Assembly (NCBI GenBank): GCA_016177405.1
Contig: JACOVG010000031.1
Span: 1 to 35,264 of the forward strand
From: Candidatus Omnitrophota bacterium
Lineage (GTDB): Bacteria; Omnitrophota; Gorgyraeia; 1-14-0-20-64-10
Direction of reading: 5' to 3'
DNA length: 35,264 nt
The position numbers and the translations under genes were made by a program. Numbering within the stretch: position 1 is the stretch's first letter; every line of letters begins with the position of its first letter. Of the stretch, positions 8,034 to 18,301 are shown one piece after another. The notes under the pieces were generated by a model. That model was not told the DNA's origin and made no database searches. It was given only the letters and a program-made list of their open reading frames with translations.

Positions 8034-10465
<2,432 letters not shown>

Positions 10466-10490
<25 letters not shown>

Positions 10491-11313: not shown

Positions 11314-14300
11314 GTGTTAAAGAGATCCGGCCAAAAGCCCAAAGGGGCTTTTCTATTTGCCCGCTTTTGGGCCACTTTATTAATCCTCACCCAGCTCGCC
11401 TGGGGCTTGCCCGCCAACGCTTTGTGGCGGGGCCTGCCCCCGCTTTCCGCCGATACCCTGCGCGTGGGCCAAGAGGCCGAGACCGCCGCCTCCGGTCTGG
11501 AAGAAGCGCTGACAGGGCAACCAGCCACTCTCTCCAGCCGACCAGCCGTTTCCTCGCAGCCAGAAACACCTGCCCAATCCTCTCCTCCATCTGACCAGGG
11601 GAAATCCACCTACCTCATTCTTATCCCGGCCTACAACGAGGGCCACCAGATGGAAGAGACCCTTCAGGAGATCAAACGGAACGGCTATTTGAAGCAGGTG
11701 GCCATTGTGGACGACGGCTCCGATGACGACACCGCCGAGATACTGCAGCGGTGGCAAGAGAAAGAGGGCCTGCGCGCCTTTTTTAGTCCAGCGAACGGCC
11801 GGATCATTGGGGCCTATCTCCATGCCCTGGATCAACTGAAAAAAGAAGGGCCCCTTCCAGACTACCTCATCTTGACGGATGCCGACACCTTCTTGGAGCC
11901 CTTGGCGGGCCATCAAACCCTGGAGGGGGCCATCCGCGCTTCCCTGGCAGAGATGGAAGAGAGGGGATGGGCCGCGGCCAGCCTTCCGGTAGAGCCCTGG
12001 CTTGGCCCCCGGTCGACCTGGCTGGAAAGGGTCCAAGTGGTCAGCTACCGGACACTTCATTTCATCAAGCGGCTCATGTCCTGGCGGCGGCAGCAACCGG
12101 TGATCTCCGGGGCAGGGGGCGTTTTTGACAGCCGGATCCTTCACAAGATGCTGCCCCACGTCCTGCGCGGGAAGGATCTGGCTCAAGATCTGCATCTGAC
12201 CTGGGTCCTCCAAAAGTACGGCTACTCCGTCGGGTTTCTGGAAAAGGATCTTGTGGTAAAGACCGCTGTTCCCAAAACGGCGGGCGCTCTCATTCGGCAG
12301 AGGACCCGCTGGGTTCGGGCATTCCTGCGGGTGGCGGCCAGAGAGAGATTCTTCCTCCTAGACGAACTGAATCATTTTCGGCTGTTGGGTCTCCTGGTCG
12401 GAGCGGAGCTTGCGGCCATCGGCTCCACGGTCTTTGGGACGACATGGCTTCTGGCGCGCGCCTGCACGGCTGCCGCGCGCAACCTTGCCTGGGTTGCTCC
12501 GGGGGATGCCTCTTTTTGGTCGGACGTCCTTTTGTTTCAGGATGCGGGGTCGATCGCGGGCCAACTGATGGTGGCGCTGGCTCTTGGAACAACCGGGATG
12601 ACCGGGATGGCCCTGCTGGGATCGAGGAGCCGGCTCGAGCGCCGCCAGGTGCTTGGCGCCGCCTGGCTCGTGCCGTCCTACCTCGTGGCGGCCGCCATGA
12701 TTCCGGTGGAATTAGCGGCTCTGTCTCTGACGCGAAAATTCCTTCCCGGGAAGCTCGGCCTTAGCCCTCTGTCTGTGACGAAGCCCAAACCGTCCGGGCT
12801 GGAAGAGATGGACGAGCCGCAGTTAAAGGAAAATAACGATTACGCGAAAGCCTTGCGATCGCTCCTTTCAGGAGAAAAAGGGGCGGGTCAGGTCACACCC
12901 CAAAGTGCTTGGCGGAGGAGAATCTTAAAGGAGATGGGCCCTCTGATCGAGGGGGAGGCTCTGCGAGTCTTCAACAATGAGAGGGTGAGGACCGCCGTTA
13001 TCCCCCTGGGAAGCGCCCTGAAGGGATACGCAGTGGATGACAGCGATGTGGAGTATGCGATTTATGTACTGGAAGGGGTAGAACCCTCTCTTGGGGCTTG
13101 GGAGGATGAAGGCAGAGAGATTGGAGCGGCGGCGGATCTGTTTTTGCGAAGGAAGGGAGTTAAGCCTGAAGGGCTGTTTTTTATAACGGGCGGACTGTGG
13201 AATTTCTCCGACGTCGCGCAGGGAAACTTTTCTTCTTGGCGCAAAAAGGCCATCCAGGCCGCCAACGTCAATCAAAGCGCTTTCCTTGCCTACCTTTTCT
13301 TGCCGGTGGCTTATGGTGATCCCGCCCTGGTAGAAGCGGCCCGTCGGAACGTTATCCGGTTTCTTTCAGAACTCAACCACGGTACTCAAGAACAGATTTG
13401 GAGCCAGATACAGAAGAAGTACCTCTGGATAGTAAGCCCGGATCCCGAACAGGTGTCTTACAAACTCGCCCTTCAGAGGTGGCTGGCTCGGCAAGAAACA
13501 ATTCCCAGCCCCGCAGGCGTGGAGGTATTTAACAAAAAGCGGAAAGCCAAGGTGGGGCTTCCCAATTTTCGCGAGATGCTCAAAATCTACGGTACCACCG
13601 CCGGGCTGGAGGAGGGGAAGCGGGGTGATCCACTCTGGCAGAAGACGCAAGGGGAGATCGTCGCCGGACTCCAGAGCCATCCGGGAGGGGAGTTTCGGGT
13701 GGAGGAGTTTGCCGAAACCCTTGGCTTGGCCGCCAAAACCTTGTATCGCCACCGGATCTTCAGATTGGTCAGGGCGGAGAATAAGCGTAGGAAGCCGCTG
13801 AACCCGCCCCTCGCCGCCCTTTGGGTTAGGCGATATAAGAAACCCAAGAGGCACGTCAAGTATCCTGTAGCTGCCATCCAGGGGGCGATCCGCAGTCATC
13901 CGGGGGGCTTTTTGGAGGTCAGAGAGCTTGCACAGCGAGCCGGTGTCGGCCTGACCACGCTCTACCGGCATCGCTATTACGATTGGGTTGAAGAAGAAAA
14001 CCGCCTCCGGAGAGAAGATCCTTCCCGAGGGATACCCATTAAGCTCTCCGGCAAGGGAAGGCCCCGCAACGAAGTGTCGGCGGACAAGCCCCGCCCTGCC
14101 GGAAGTCCAGTCCCAGCTGGGCTGGAGGAGGGGCCCGGGCGGTTTACGCGCAGGGGATTTTTGAAGACGGTGGGGGCTGCCGGGGCGGGTCTGGCGCTTG
14201 GTTCAAACTACCCCCTGTTTGGCCAGGAAGCGCCGCCCGGGGCGCCTGTTTCGGAAAAAGAGCTGTCTGACTGGAGCTTCCCGCTCTGGGAGCCCCACGG

Positions 14301-17300
14301 GCCGGATGAGCGGATACCGACGGATATTAAAGCGCTCGATAAAGCCATAGAAGTAATGAGGGAACGCCATCGAGAGTGGCAGAAGCGGCCGGGCCGTTCA
14401 GGACGGTTTGTCTTTTCCCAAGAGCTTGAACCATTGAAAATAAGGGATCCCGATCGCTTTGAATACGGAGTAATAGGGGTGATCACGGGCAAAGCCCAAA
14501 ACATTCGAAAAACAACGGACCCCAAAGAGAAGGCTCAGAAAAACGCGGAGCTCGTCGAGTACATCACGAGCCACGCAGGATGGCTCACTCATTTTCCGGA
14601 CGCGCTGATTGATGCCTATCAATCCATGTGGGGCGAAGAGTACCGGAAATTTGTAGAGGCGTACCGTTATGAACCGAGAGACCCCCGGGACGCCGAATCG
14701 CTGCGCCAGATCTTTTCAAGCCCACAGCGGTTGGCGCAGACGTTGGCGGTTGCGCCGTTTGTGCTTGGCCTGCAGGAGGCCGGCTACCGGCTGTACCAGG
14801 GGGTATGGTTGAGGGAACCCATCGGGCAAGTGAACTATGCCGATTTTTGGATGTTGGAGAATCTGGCGGCCGACCCCGTCGGCTCCAAGCAGGTGATAGA
14901 CCTGGCGCGAGAGCTTCGAGAGGCGCTGGGCGTTTTGGAGTTAGGCGGCGGCGTCGGAGAAGCCCTTCGCCTTCGGGAATTGGCAACGCCCGAACAGGAG
15001 AAAGAAAGGAAAGAGCTGATCGAAACTTTTCGGTGGTATGGAAGCTCTCCGTCGAGCCGGGCCGCCGGGCAGGGATTGAACGTCACCTTGGCTTTGGCCT
15101 TTGCGGAGGCGTCCCGCGAGGTTTACTTAGAGCGCTACTCCGGCGTGGCGAACCAAGGGCTTGAGCGGTTGGGCTTCTTTTTTACCAAGTTGGAGGAGCT
15201 GATCGGCAGGCCCCTGGAAGAGGAGGAAAAGAAGGATTTCGTGTCGGACAAGTTTAATCCGGGCCCCTTGGAGCTTGGCGCGATGGATCTTCTGCTGAAG
15301 GAAAAAGAGCAATGGCGCAAGGACTTCCCCTACCTGGCGCGCCGCCCAGCCAAGGTCTTGCCTTATTTATTGGAGTTTGCCTCTGACGGGAAATCCCTGG
15401 CGGTTTTTCACTGGGTTGTCCAAAGATTGGGGCCGACGGATGATGTGACGAAACTCTTGAGGTTTAGGTTCCTCGACCTAAGACGCCTGGGTTCACTCCA
15501 AGAGGTGCAAGCAAGCATTGCCGCGCTGGAGAAGAAGATCGGCCTCCGCTTCAACCAAGAAACCTGGGAGGAGGCCCTTGCGCTCACCTCCCGAGAGCCG
15601 GAGCTTATCGCCTTTCTTCAAAAGGCCCACCGAGAAACGGGATGGCGATTCACCGATCCAGGCCCCGTTCCCCTGTGGCTGTGGGTTGGGCATCAATTTA
15701 ACCGATGGGGAGACGCAGACAGGGAAACTCTCTTCTGGCAGATGATTCAACGGTTGCGTAAAGCCGGGTGGGATCCGGCCGATCCCAGCCGGGAAGTTGA
15801 GGAAAAAAACATCACAAAGTGGATGGATCCCGGAACGCCGTGGGATGAAATTGCGGTGCTGCATCAGGAAACCGGCTATCGGATTGAAATGGGTGATCCG
15901 CAGGCCTCTGGTGTGCTTGGCTACTTGAGGGATCGTCCTGACGTGAGGGAGATGGCCGCCACCCTGCACCAATTGAGCCGGGGGGCCTACCGGTATTTTC
16001 ACGGCCCCGGAGGCCACGATCCGTTTCTTGAGAAGCTGCTGAATCGGAAGGACGGAAGGTTGATCCGGGCGGTCGCGGAGGGGCTTGGGGAAGGATGGCT
16101 GACACAGGAAGACCTGGTCTTAGGCGGATCGCCAGGGACGGAATTGTTCGAGCACCTTTCCCGGATGGCCGACATCAAGGATCGCCTTGCCTTGATCGAG
16201 AGGTTCTTGAAGTTGATGGACCCGAAGCGCGGGAAGAAGGCGTTACTCGGACCCAAGATAGAGGGCTGGCTGGACGCGGGGGTGCTGGATCTCGCCGAGC
16301 GCTTCCAAAGCGAGATCGGCTGTGTGTTTGACCCCGCGGATTCACCGGCCTGGCTGGTCACGTTGGATCAAGAATGGCGTGGACTGGAAGGGACGGAAGC
16401 CGCGCGGAGGTTTAAGCGTTTGTTCTTTTTTGCGGACTTCCGGATCGGCCTGACGGAGCTCTTCAGATTCCTGGACAAATTTTCCCTAGATCCGTCAGGC
16501 GCTCTTTTACGGCTTATGGATCTGGACGCGGAAGCGGCGCTCAAGGTTTTGACGCCGAGGGGCTACCGGCTGCGCCTGGCCGACGCGGCCTTCCTTCAAC
16601 AGCTGGGGCAATCCCCGGGGTTTCTTTATGAGGTGGGGAGGGGAAGGATTCCGGTGGATCCGGATCTCTATCGAATCCGGTCGGAGTACCTGAAGCGGCA
16701 GCTTCAAGATCCCCAGGTGCAAGCCGAGCTCCACCCCATCGGCTTGAACGATCTCAACGACCCCTATTCCGAGCATGGCGGCATGATCGGTTGGCGCAAG
16801 GATGGCCGGCTGGGGTGGCTGGACCTGCCATCCTGGTTCGTTCCCATGCGTTCGGCTGCCGCCAACCTGCATTATAAGGAAAGCGCAAGGGATTTCGCCC
16901 ATGCGGGCCTTCATGATGGCGAGTGGTTTGGGGAATTCCATCTGCATGCCGTGGGAGACCCAAGACACGCGGATTCGCCCAGCGACGGTGACCTTAAAGG
17001 GGCAAAGGCCGAGCACAGAGGCATAAGCGTTCTGGTTTCAGTGACAGCGCCGGATGCCGGCGGCCGGATTGAGGTTCGGGTCAAGACGTACCGGGGAGAT
17101 TACGAGACTCCTCCCATCACAGTGGCCGACTTCTCCTTCAAGCCCGCCGGTCTGGAAGAGAGGCAGAGCGGGGCAGTGCTGGAAATCTGGCAGGGTTTCA
17201 GATCGCAGGCGCCTGCCCTTAGCGGCCCGTGGGTGGTGGTGCTGGGGCCGACGCTGGCGAAGATTCCGGCGGCGCGAACCTTGGCCGGCCTGGAGGAGTG

Positions 17301-17583
17301 GATTCGTCTGGATGAAGGGGGCGAGCAGACGGCGGAGCTGACGGCCCGCCTGGTTTTTGAGGGAACAAACCAGATCCGGTACCTGGGAGGGCTGGAGGAG
17401 GCCGGCCGATTCAAGAAAATCTCTGCCGGACTCGTGGAGGTGAGCCACTTCCCCGTCGAGAGCGCGCCGGACACCTCAAGGGTCATCGGACAAATTCTCC
17501 TTTCCTTGGGGATCCCTCCCGGCAGCTACTCGGCGGGGCTGGAGGAGTTCACCCGAGAGCTGGAGCTCTTGGAGGCGGCGTAG
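11314..17583 (+). CDS. Giant multidomain polyprotein-like protein with GLEE motifs
   Basis: This 2089-residue reading frame is unbroken and was not recognised as a known full-length family. It has: residues 1-36, a Sec-like signal (basic start, hydrophobic core, ANA|L); 98-475, a GT2 glycosyltransferase (IPAYNEG, VDDGSDDD, DAD 189-191, D292, QRTRW 329-333) with three membrane segments; about 500-740, a nucleotidyltransferase-like core (G566-S567, D578-V-E580); 780-902, two helix-turn-helix-like repeats; 943-985, a twin-arginine signal (TRRGFLK); about 990-1780, a long helical region of unknown function; 1820-1893, a JAMM-like motif (E1820, H1876-x-H1878, S1890-x-x-D1893); and a 140-residue tail. 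The pentapeptide (A/S/G)GLEE occurs at 60, 494, 763, 935, 1945, 1991, 2025 and 2074, mostly between domains. The start is GTG without a clear ribosome site. TATACT at 11299-11304 may be its -10 box. Confidence 0.85.
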   Translation: MLKRSGQKPKGAFLFARFWATLLILTQLAWGLPANALWRGLPPLSADTLRVGQEAETAASGLEEALTGQPATLSSRPAVSSQPETPAQSSPPSDQGKSTYLILIPAYNEGHQMEETLQEIKRNGYLKQVAIVDDGSDDDTAEILQRWQEKEGLRAFFSPANGRIIGAYLHALDQLKKEGPLPDYLILTDADTFLEPLAGHQTLEGAIRASLAEMEERGWAAASLPVEPWLGPRSTWLERVQVVSYRTLHFIKRLMSWRRQQPVISGAGGVFDSRILHKMLPHVLRGKDLAQDLHLTWVLQKYGYSVGFLEKDLVVKTAVPKTAGALIRQRTRWVRAFLRVAARERFFLLDELNHFRLLGLLVGAELAAIGSTVFGTTWLLARACTAAARNLAWVAPGDASFWSDVLLFQDAGSIAGQLMVALALGTTGMTGMALLGSRSRLERRQVLGAAWLVPSYLVAAAMIPVELAALSLTRKFLPGKLGLSPLSVTKPKPSGLEEMDEPQLKENNDYAKALRSLLSGEKGAGQVTPQSAWRRRILKEMGPLIEGEALRVFNNERVRTAVIPLGSALKGYAVDDSDVEYAIYVLEGVEPSLGAWEDEGREIGAAADLFLRRKGVKPEGLFFITGGLWNFSDVAQGNFSSWRKKAIQAANVNQSAFLAYLFLPVAYGDPALVEAARRNVIRFLSELNHGTQEQIWSQIQKKYLWIVSPDPEQVSYKLALQRWLARQETIPSPAGVEVFNKKRKAKVGLPNFREMLKIYGTTAGLEEGKRGDPLWQKTQGEIVAGLQSHPGGEFRVEEFAETLGLAAKTLYRHRIFRLVRAENKRRKPLNPPLAALWVRRYKKPKRHVKYPVAAIQGAIRSHPGGFLEVRELAQRAGVGLTTLYRHRYYDWVEEENRLRREDPSRGIPIKLSGKGRPRNEVSADKPRPAGSPVPAGLEEGPGRFTRRGFLKTVGAAGAGLALGSNYPLFGQEAPPGAPVSEKELSDWSFPLWEPHGPDERIPTDIKALDKAIEVMRERHREWQKRPGRSGRFVFSQELEPLKIRDPDRFEYGVIGVITGKAQNIRKTTDPKEKAQKNAELVEYITSHAGWLTHFPDALIDAYQSMWGEEYRKFVEAYRYEPRDPRDAESLRQIFSSPQRLAQTLAVAPFVLGLQEAGYRLYQGVWLREPIGQVNYADFWMLENLAADPVGSKQVIDLARELREALGVLELGGGVGEALRLRELATPEQEKERKELIETFRWYGSSPSSRAAGQGLNVTLALAFAEASREVYLERYSGVANQGLERLGFFFTKLEELIGRPLEEEEKKDFVSDKFNPGPLELGAMDLLLKEKEQWRKDFPYLARRPAKVLPYLLEFASDGKSLAVFHWVVQRLGPTDDVTKLLRFRFLDLRRLGSLQEVQASIAALEKKIGLRFNQETWEEALALTSREPELIAFLQKAHRETGWRFTDPGPVPLWLWVGHQFNRWGDADRETLFWQMIQRLRKAGWDPADPSREVEEKNITKWMDPGTPWDEIAVLHQETGYRIEMGDPQASGVLGYLRDRPDVREMAATLHQLSRGAYRYFHGPGGHDPFLEKLLNRKDGRLIRAVAEGLGEGWLTQEDLVLGGSPGTELFEHLSRMADIKDRLALIERFLKLMDPKRGKKALLGPKIEGWLDAGVLDLAERFQSEIGCVFDPADSPAWLVTLDQEWRGLEGTEAARRFKRLFFFADFRIGLTELFRFLDKFSLDPSGALLRLMDLDAEAALKVLTPRGYRLRLADAAFLQQLGQSPGFLYEVGRGRIPVDPDLYRIRSEYLKRQLQDPQVQAELHPIGLNDLNDPYSEHGGMIGWRKDGRLGWLDLPSWFVPMRSAAANLHYKESARDFAHAGLHDGEWFGEFHLHAVGDPRHADSPSDGDLKGAKAEHRGISVLVSVTAPDAGGRIEVRVKTYRGDYETPPITVADFSFKPAGLEERQSGAVLEIWQGFRSQAPALSGPWVVVLGPTLAKIPAARTLAGLEEWIRLDEGGEQTAELTARLVFEGTNQIRYLGGLEEAGRFKKISAGLVEVSHFPVESAPDTSRVIGQILLSLGIPPGSYSAGLEEFTRELELLEAA
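13654..13791 (+). repeat. SHPGG-TLYRHR protein repeat, copy 1
   Basis: Residues 781-826 of the giant protein contain SHPGG, then a Val-Glu helix, then TLYRHR, then V-x-x-EN-x-x-RR. The same pattern returns 73 residues later. The spacing and the G-x-x-x-x-TLYRHR turn look like a small helix-turn-helix domain. Confidence 0.6.
13873..14016 (+). repeat. SHPGG-TLYRHR protein repeat, copy 2
   Basis: Residues 854-901 repeat the pattern of copy 1, including SHPGG, V-x-E-x-A, a Gly turn, TLYRHR, WV and EEN-x-x-RR. About 40% of positions are identical by eye. The two copies are separated by a Lys/Arg-rich linker. Confidence 0.6.
14149..14235 (+). other. Internal twin-arginine (Tat) signal-like segment
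   Basis: Residues 946-974 of the giant protein start with the twin Arg (cgc agg at 14149-14154) in TRRGFLK, fitting the S/T-RR-x-F-L-K consensus. A weakly hydrophobic Ala/Gly core (TVGAAGAGLALG) follows, then a Pro-containing region ending FGQEA. An AGLEE pentapeptide lies seven residues before the twin Arg. Tat signals normally stand at a free N-terminus. Confidence 0.7.
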
Positions 17584-17608: not shown

Positions 17609-18301
17609 ATGGATCCCGGGACGCTGTTCATCGTGGGAACTCCCATCGGAAACCTGAGGGACATCACCCTGCGGGCGATCGAGGTGTTGAAGTCGGCGTC
17701 GGTGATCGCGGCGGAGGACACCCGGAGAACCAAGATTCTGTGCCAGCGGTATGGGATGGACCGGCCGCTGGTGAGCCTCAACGAGCACAACGAGCGAAAC
17801 CGGGCGCCGGAGCTGATTCTAAGACTGCGGGCGGGAGAATCGGTAGCGCTGGTGACCGATGCCGGGATGCCGGTGGTCTCGGACCCCGGGGCCTATCTCA
17901 TTGAGCAGGCCCAGGCGGCCGGAATTCCGGTGGCGGTCATACCGGGCCCCTCGGCGGTGACGGCGGCGCTGGCGGTTTCCGGGTTCCGGGGGGAACGGTT
18001 TCGGTTCGAGGGATTCCCGCCGCGCAAGGACAAGGCGCTCAAGGCGTGGCTGGCCTCGCTGGCCCGGGAGGAGACACCGGTGGTTTGCTTCGAGTCCCCC
18101 TTCAGACTCGTTAAAACGCTGAAGGCGGTTCGGGAGGTTTTGGGAGAGATTCCGGTGGCGGTGGCCAGGGAGTTGACCAAGCTGCACGAGGAGGTTACCC
18201 GAGGCTCGACAAGCGAGGTCCTGGCACGGTATACTGACAGGCACCCCAAAGGAGAAATCACGGTTGTTTTTCTGCCCGGGGGAGAAAAACCAAGCAATTG
18301 A
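17609..18301 (+). CDS. rsmI: 16S rRNA 2'-O-methyltransferase RsmI
   Basis: RsmI uses S-adenosylmethionine to 2'-O-methylate C1402 of 16S rRNA. The 230-residue protein has the SAM-dependent tetrapyrrole-methylase fold: FIVGTPIGNLRDITLRA, AAEDTRRTKIL, VSLNEHNE, VALVTDAGMPVVSDPGA and VIPGPSAVTAALAVSG, each typical of RsmI. It lacks the longer C-terminal extension of some family members. ATG at 17609 fits the family's N-terminus. It has GAAGG only 1 nt before it, too close for normal initiation, while TATAAT stands 7 nt upstream, so a leaderless message is plausible. lpxA follows 1 nt after its stop. Confidence 0.95.
   Translation: MDPGTLFIVGTPIGNLRDITLRAIEVLKSASVIAAEDTRRTKILCQRYGMDRPLVSLNEHNERNRAPELILRLRAGESVALVTDAGMPVVSDPGAYLIEQAQAAGIPVAVIPGPSAVTAALAVSGFRGERFRFEGFPPRKDKALKAWLASLAREETPVVCFESPFRLVKTLKAVREVLGEIPVAVARELTKLHEEVTRGSTSEVLARYTDRHPKGEITVVFLPGGEKPSN

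Follow-up and report, generated by a model that had tools for sequence, protein, structure and literature searches.

A short GLEE peptide motif brackets the modules of giant proteins in one family of Omnitrophota

Why does a giant gene beside gyrA repeat one short peptide between modules of unrelated kinds? The window, that is, the whole stretch of DNA analysed here (35,264 nucleotides, contig JACOVG010000031.1 of a Candidatus Omnitrophota bacterium), is a replication-origin region with dnaA, dnaN, gyrB, gyrA, the giant gene, a tetrapyrrole methylase gene and pyrimidine genes. The giant frame (11314–17583, plus strand, GTG start) lies between gyrA (8034–10490) and the tetrapyrrole methylase gene (17609–18301) and is open throughout its 2,089 residues. 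A preliminary description made from the sequence alone had read it as a possible self-processed bacterial polyprotein with eight [ASG]GLEE motifs at domain junctions. All eight motifs were found at the positions given there, which refer to the residue preceding the G of GLEE; the G itself is residue 61, 495, 764, 936, 1946, 1992, 2026 and 2075. From the composition of the frame, 0.16 copies of GLEE would be expected, and every other 4-mer occurs at most five times. The rest of the window holds one further GLEE, located in DnaA and preceded by His.

All parts of the giant lie on the plus strand. The protein starts with an N-terminal signal-peptide-like segment read from the sequence (GAFLFARFWATLLILTQLAWGLPANAL, 11344–11424), which is separated by the first motif copy (SGLEE, 11491–11505) from a glycosyltransferase family 2 domain (residues 102–380, 11617–12453; Pfam PF00535/PF13632/PF13641, best E 6e-15), in agreement with the glycosyltransferase named in the preliminary description. 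At the second copy, a junction (SGLEE, 12793–12807), begins a block homologous to a protein of the related genome G065 (residues 493–770, 36% identity), which spans a nucleotidyltransferase-like module (12808–13602). The earlier assignment of this module to the nucleotidyltransferases is tentative: it is based on the sequence motif (GSALKGYAVDDSDVE), and Pfam gave no match and the PDB no convincing one. The third copy, again a junction (AGLEE, 13600–13614), is followed by a helix-turn-helix (HTH)-like repeat module with HPGG (13615–14118), a reading that had also been proposed before and that agrees with weak Pfam matches and a confident AlphaFold model. In this model, which covers residues 740–990, both flanking motifs are unstructured (pLDDT <50). 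Directly behind the fourth copy (AGLEE, 14116–14130), likewise a junction, is an internal Tat signal (TRRGFLKTVGAAGAGLALG, 14146–14217), recognised as such from the outset and here matched by TIGR01409 at 31.7 bits against a cut-off of 16.7 (E 1.3e-7). The Tat signal belongs to a helical module of approximately 1,000 residues (14131–17148) that, apart from this signal, has no family or PDB match. Near the end of the module (approximately 16940–17000) is a JAMM-like stretch; the JAMM-like domain of the preliminary description is not supported, as the stretch has no Pfam match and is not conserved in relatives.

The fifth copy (AGLEE, 17146–17160) is a junction ahead of the C-terminal domain (17149–17580). 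For the last 144 residues, the model predicts a small alpha/beta domain (pLDDT 88), which is confined to the family of the window among 193 genomes; it has no catalytic match, and the PDB comparison returned generic Rossmann-like matches only, none with E <0.001. The sixth copy (AGLEE, 17284–17298) and the seventh (GGLEE, 17386–17400, at a strand-helix turn), with the residues ahead of the motif at 1991 and 2025, are located within this fold, in or at the starts of helices, and are variable among relatives; thus, the model and the alignments suggest that both copies are probably structural and not junctions. The eighth copy (AGLEE, 17533–17547) marks the start of the last helix and is present in all aligned GLEE-type relatives. 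Placement of the copies at domain junctions or in the tail therefore stands for residues 61, 495, 764, 936 and 1946 (junctions) and 2075 (tail), but not for 1992 and 2026, which lie inside the fold.

The GyrA encoded next to the giant has no insert, unlike the GyrA proteins encoded at L081:964–4725 (genome G242) and L100:8117–12088 (JACQCH010000007.1), which contain in-frame inserts of approximately 450 and 510 residues, respectively, at two different sites. The first residue of these inserts is Cys, and HN at their end is followed by Thr or Ser. Judging by these residues, the inserts are probable inteins.

The motif extends far beyond the gyrA locus. In the genome of the window (G000, 1.70 Mb), a DNA pattern for A-G-[LF]-E-E had 121 matches versus 12 for the reversed control, and 167 versus 15 when Ala or Ser was allowed. 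Twenty stretches around pattern matches, together with the window, yielded 29 motif-carrying frames of 421–4,827 residues, with 147 copies of GLEE against 4.1 expected. The residue ahead of GLEE is Ala in 82 copies, Ser in 29, Thr in 22, Gly in 8 and Val in 6, with no others, and single-residue variants are close to background (GIEE 3, GLEK 6, RLEE 8). There are 2–11 copies per giant, all internal, and some tails extend fewer than 25 residues past the last of them. One of the 29 frames (L047:16680–19256) joins the 20-, 30- and 49-kDa subunits of NADH dehydrogenase in 859 residues; its single AGLEE looks like chance, and this ordinary fusion was dropped from later counts. The motif thus belongs to about 30 proteins per genome, which is at odds with a single polyprotein, whereas the enrichment in long proteins that the preliminary description had proposed to look for is evident.

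Among 135 DNA matches to [AST]GLEE in the G000 stretches, 130 lie in the reading frame of a giant, one is in another sense frame, none is antisense and four are outside the giants, and the 146 motif sites in the giants are encoded by 70 distinct DNA 15-mers. Because the matches are frame-specific and so many different 15-mers encode them, selection acts on the peptide and not on a DNA repeat, the conclusion previously drawn from the Gly and Glu codons, which indeed vary between copies. Leu of the motif is encoded by CTG at 108 of the 146 sites, compared to 33% across the same proteins; GAG is favoured for Glu at these sites, and the CTG bias is seen in several relatives too.

The motif also avoids domains: none of 94 copies falls within a Pfam domain (17.2 ± 3.6 expected), the second point that had been proposed for checking. 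The window giant is not conserved end to end, and relatives align with it in motif-bounded blocks (residues 493–770, 761–939 and 1945–2088). Among 35 homologous blocks compared with the motifs masked, which share some proteins so that the cases are not all independent, 12 starts and 8 ends are no more than 15 residues away from a motif in each of the two proteins, versus 0.33 each under random placement. At aligned homologous junctions, the flanks diverge with gaps and the motif stays; the junction of HTH-like module, motif and RRxF in the window recurs in G242. The gene order gyrA, giant, tetrapyrrole methylase, pyrB is also found in G242 (giant of 1,356 residues) and G240 (916 residues), and the giants of all three loci have the N-terminus and the C-terminal domain in common, with largely different interior modules. 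Motifs are thus found where modules exchanged between genera end, and a repeated, recognition-like site occupies linkers between independent domains, as in polyproteins. The proposal of a signal at domain junctions is accordingly strongly supported, being genome-wide, frame- and family-specific, outside domains and at the borders of shuffled modules; its extension to all eight copies of the window giant is not.

The HPGG-containing HTH-like module is itself mobile: in addition to the window, it was identified in L077, L079, L080, L082 and L083, that is, in five genera overall, mostly directly behind a motif of its own in the four others, with one to three units per module and no match to a known family above the cut-off. 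Linkers are repeated within some proteins as well, with GPPHDR[RQ][TA]GLEE present three times in the frame L035:10144–14952 and GQGAGLEE three times in L038:7394–12052, as if linkers had been copied within the gene.

Across 237 Omnitrophota genomes, enrichment of the motif is limited to the family of the window (167 versus 15, 86 versus 23 and 61 versus 6 for the control), with counts close to the control in the other families. Eight of the nine family genomes show the enrichment; the exception is G237, in which the giants carry [AST]GLE followed by other residues, so that this genome seems to use [AST]GLE-x instead. Other relatives vary the second residue: G059 has a mixture of GLEE, GQEE and GAEE, mostly with a single flavour in each protein, and G242 and G065 have GMEE and GVEE in addition, these frequencies being rough, with few proteins sampled in each relative. 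The G059 giants L076, L077 and L078 each prefer one flavour (GLEE, GQEE or GAEE), suggesting homogenisation within the gene. Joint drift of a reader and its sites would be expected to produce such lineage variants. Relatives with giants of this kind include the isolates nzgw286 and NC_groundwater_963. A search of the open-access literature, with subscription journals outside its coverage, retrieved no paper describing the motif, which constitutes a real and large peptide code, apparently not described so far.

What the giants carry bears on how the motif might be used. A hydropathy rule (basic N-terminus plus hydrophobic stretch) detected a Sec-type signal-like segment ahead of the first motif in 38 of 39 giants with complete N-termini; in 35 of these 38, LR or LW directly follows the segment, and in 22 giants two motifs lie within 50 residues of each other near the leader. 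Past the motifs, Sec-like segments are not enriched (4 versus 3.9 expected). Near-canonical RRx[FV] sites occur within 30 residues past a motif in 6 of 21 cases, a zone that holds 8.5% of residues; one of the six falls in the C-terminal domain, and four others fail the curated Tat model, which the site in the window alone passes. The modules between motifs are cytosolic-type proteins, with Pfam matches in G000 to GH77, starch synthase, PfkB, GlpX, transaldolase, aminotransferase, phosphomannomutase, sigma-70 with Xre repeats, MraZ, WD40, TPR, Fic, GNAT and methyltransferases. The PfkB modules look like working proteins, to judge from the GxGD motif retained in all three. Two ordinary PfkB genes are present in G000 besides the divergent copies in the giants, and the only GH77 of the genome is part of a giant.

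In the best explanation, a single trans-acting factor of this Omnitrophota family would recognise [A/S/T/G/V]-G-L-E-E as a short peptide signal, which brackets the modules of about 30 giants per genome, each with an N-terminal signal-like segment. Recognition of the motif by a shared factor is likely: the motif is strict, resides in unstructured linkers, is kept amid changing surroundings and drifts by lineage, which together are best accounted for by one reader. The likeliest reader would be a protease, and to cleavage we give slightly less than an even chance. The enzyme would cut the flexible linker within the motif or immediately beside it, with the small residue and Gly at the scissile bond or directly ahead of it, and would release the leader, the modules and the tail as separate proteins. 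We infer from these patterns the single reader, cleavage as the outcome of reading, the position of the bond and the site where the modules act. A protease is favoured because the internal Tat signal past the fourth motif, at a junction that recurs in G242 with RRxF, should need a free N-terminus and because the modules look like complete proteins. On a broader view, which we find conceivable but somewhat doubtful, cellular polyproteins with signal segments would make up a sizeable share of the proteome; a dedicated protease, co-evolving with its site, would release enzymes and regulators from them by the dozen, and the linkers would double as shuffling joints.

Cleavage is not the only function that a recognised motif could have. 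The giants might stay uncut and bind a single receptor through the repeated GLEE, such as a scaffold, a chaperone or an export machine, a serious rival that we nonetheless consider unlikely. Module borders and a strict motif are also expected for a docking site, recurrence of the motif along the chain and at the extreme termini, including tails shorter than 25 residues, would suit it, lineage co-variation is as compatible with a binding partner as with a protease, and the copies within the folded C-terminal domain, which fit cleavage poorly, would need no cut. However, an internal Tat signal would be of little use in an uncut chain, and no receptor family has been identified. Uncut giants might also be exported as effectors or surface proteins to a partner cell, GLEE being a secretion or sorting tag. 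The leaders, often with a motif pair behind them, and the divergent, seemingly extra PfkB copies point in this direction, as does the predation or adhesion role proposed for giant Omnitrophota ORFs (PMC10066038), but this scenario appears improbable, given that no secretion system is tied to the giants here, that an internal, many-copy motif is unlike known secretion tags and that GH77 exists in G000 in a giant only.

Two further possibilities dispense with recognition of the peptide altogether. GLEE could have been copied along with shuffled modules and thus be a mark of ancestry and recombination. Swapping of modules at the motif between and within genomes, the copied motif-adjacent linkers of L035, the preference of each G059 protein for one flavour and the bias toward CTG and GAG are all consistent with such inheritance; it is, however, hard to reconcile with homologous junctions that keep the motif between diverged, gapped flanks, with a small residue ahead of all 147 copies and near absence of decayed variants in G000, and with the many 15-mers indicative of selection on the peptide, and we regard it as rather improbable. 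Alternatively, CTGGAGGAG could serve as an internal Shine-Dalgarno sequence or a recombination site, the peptide being a by-product. GGAGGAG does resemble a ribosome-binding site, codon choice is biased toward CTGGAGGAG, and GTG is slightly commoner just downstream (24 versus 13), yet ATG is rarer there (4 versus 8.6) and TTG is at background. Confinement of the matches to one frame and one strand, the variation of synonymous codons, and the change of the second motif residue in G059 with GxEE retained leave a DNA or RNA signal largely refuted and highly improbable.

If the motif is read by a protease, the giants do not appear to supply it. No peptidase domain was found in the G000 giants in Pfam scans, and hence no protease domain common to the chains, so that self-processing, as initially envisaged, is not supported, although a protease of unknown fold might still be present. 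The JAMM-like stretch (HxH..SxxD) was discarded as a built-in protease since, besides lacking a Pfam match and conservation, it is unique to the window giant; each relative has a different module ahead of the C-terminal domain. The C-terminal domain was rejected as well, its confident model having no protease match. Four candidate readers encoded elsewhere were also dismissed: LapG (Peptidase_C93), with none in G000 and weak matches in three of nine family genomes; sortase (PF04203), with none in G000 and one sub-threshold match in nine genomes; exosortase (PF09721), with none in G000 and presence in two of nine family genomes; and Prok-JAB, a single ordinary gene elsewhere in G000, from a family also present in 9 of 14 control genomes.

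Giant ORFs have been reported in Omnitrophota (Velamenicoccia and others) as very long (>20 kb) and poorly conserved, with few annotated domains, often transmembrane or adhesion domains, and without mention of the term polyprotein (PMC10066038). The giants described here span approximately 420–5,060 residues, contain many cytosolic-type enzymes and have the motif as their defining feature. They share with LPXTG/sortase, PEP-CTERM/exosortase, GlyGly-CTERM/rhombosortase and MYXO-CTERM/myxosortase systems a short, lineage-restricted motif in many unrelated proteins per genome, N-terminal signal segments and many substrates for one presumed enzyme. However, those sorting signals are single, C-terminal and tripartite (motif, transmembrane segment, basic tail), whereas GLEE is internal and repeated, with no hydrophobic enrichment behind it, and, unlike in LPXTG and PEP-CTERM systems, neither sortase nor exosortase was found in G000. 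Viral polyproteins, such as those cut by picornavirus 3C or potyvirus NIa, have repeated short cut sites in linkers between independent proteins. The giants resemble them in that a short site recurs along the chain and has fixed residues flanking the presumed bond, but are cellular, comprise about 30 unrelated chains per genome and contain no detected protease. LapA adhesins are giant, exported proteins cut by LapG at a TAAG-type (small-small-Gly) site. In contrast to the many GLEE copies of the giants, LapA proteins have a single site each, without LEE, and Peptidase_C93 is absent from G000. The giants of the gyrA locus are also reminiscent of polymorphic toxins and other cassette-recombining secreted proteins in having a conserved N-terminus and modules swapped at an orthologous locus; here, however, it is the interior that is swapped, a C-terminal domain is retained, and most modules are of metabolic and regulatory types.

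To our knowledge, polyproteins on a genome scale are a viral habit not known for bacteria. Should the motif prove to be a cleavage site, processing of cellular proteins in these bacteria would follow the manner of viruses, gene prediction and function assignment for the giants would be needed per module, and the specific protease with a five-residue site, if real, would be a useful tool. As a docking site, the motif would represent a new lineage-specific protein-recognition code. Under either reading, the short motif offers a testable handle on giant Omnitrophota proteins, and large proteins can evolve by cassette swaps at a fixed joint. Additionally, several giants without the GLEE-bearing C-terminal domain in L031, L039, L040, L048, L049 and L050 close in FA (for example, FLLFA, VLIFA, AVFA, DLFA and KQFA), which is possibly a second C-terminal signal.
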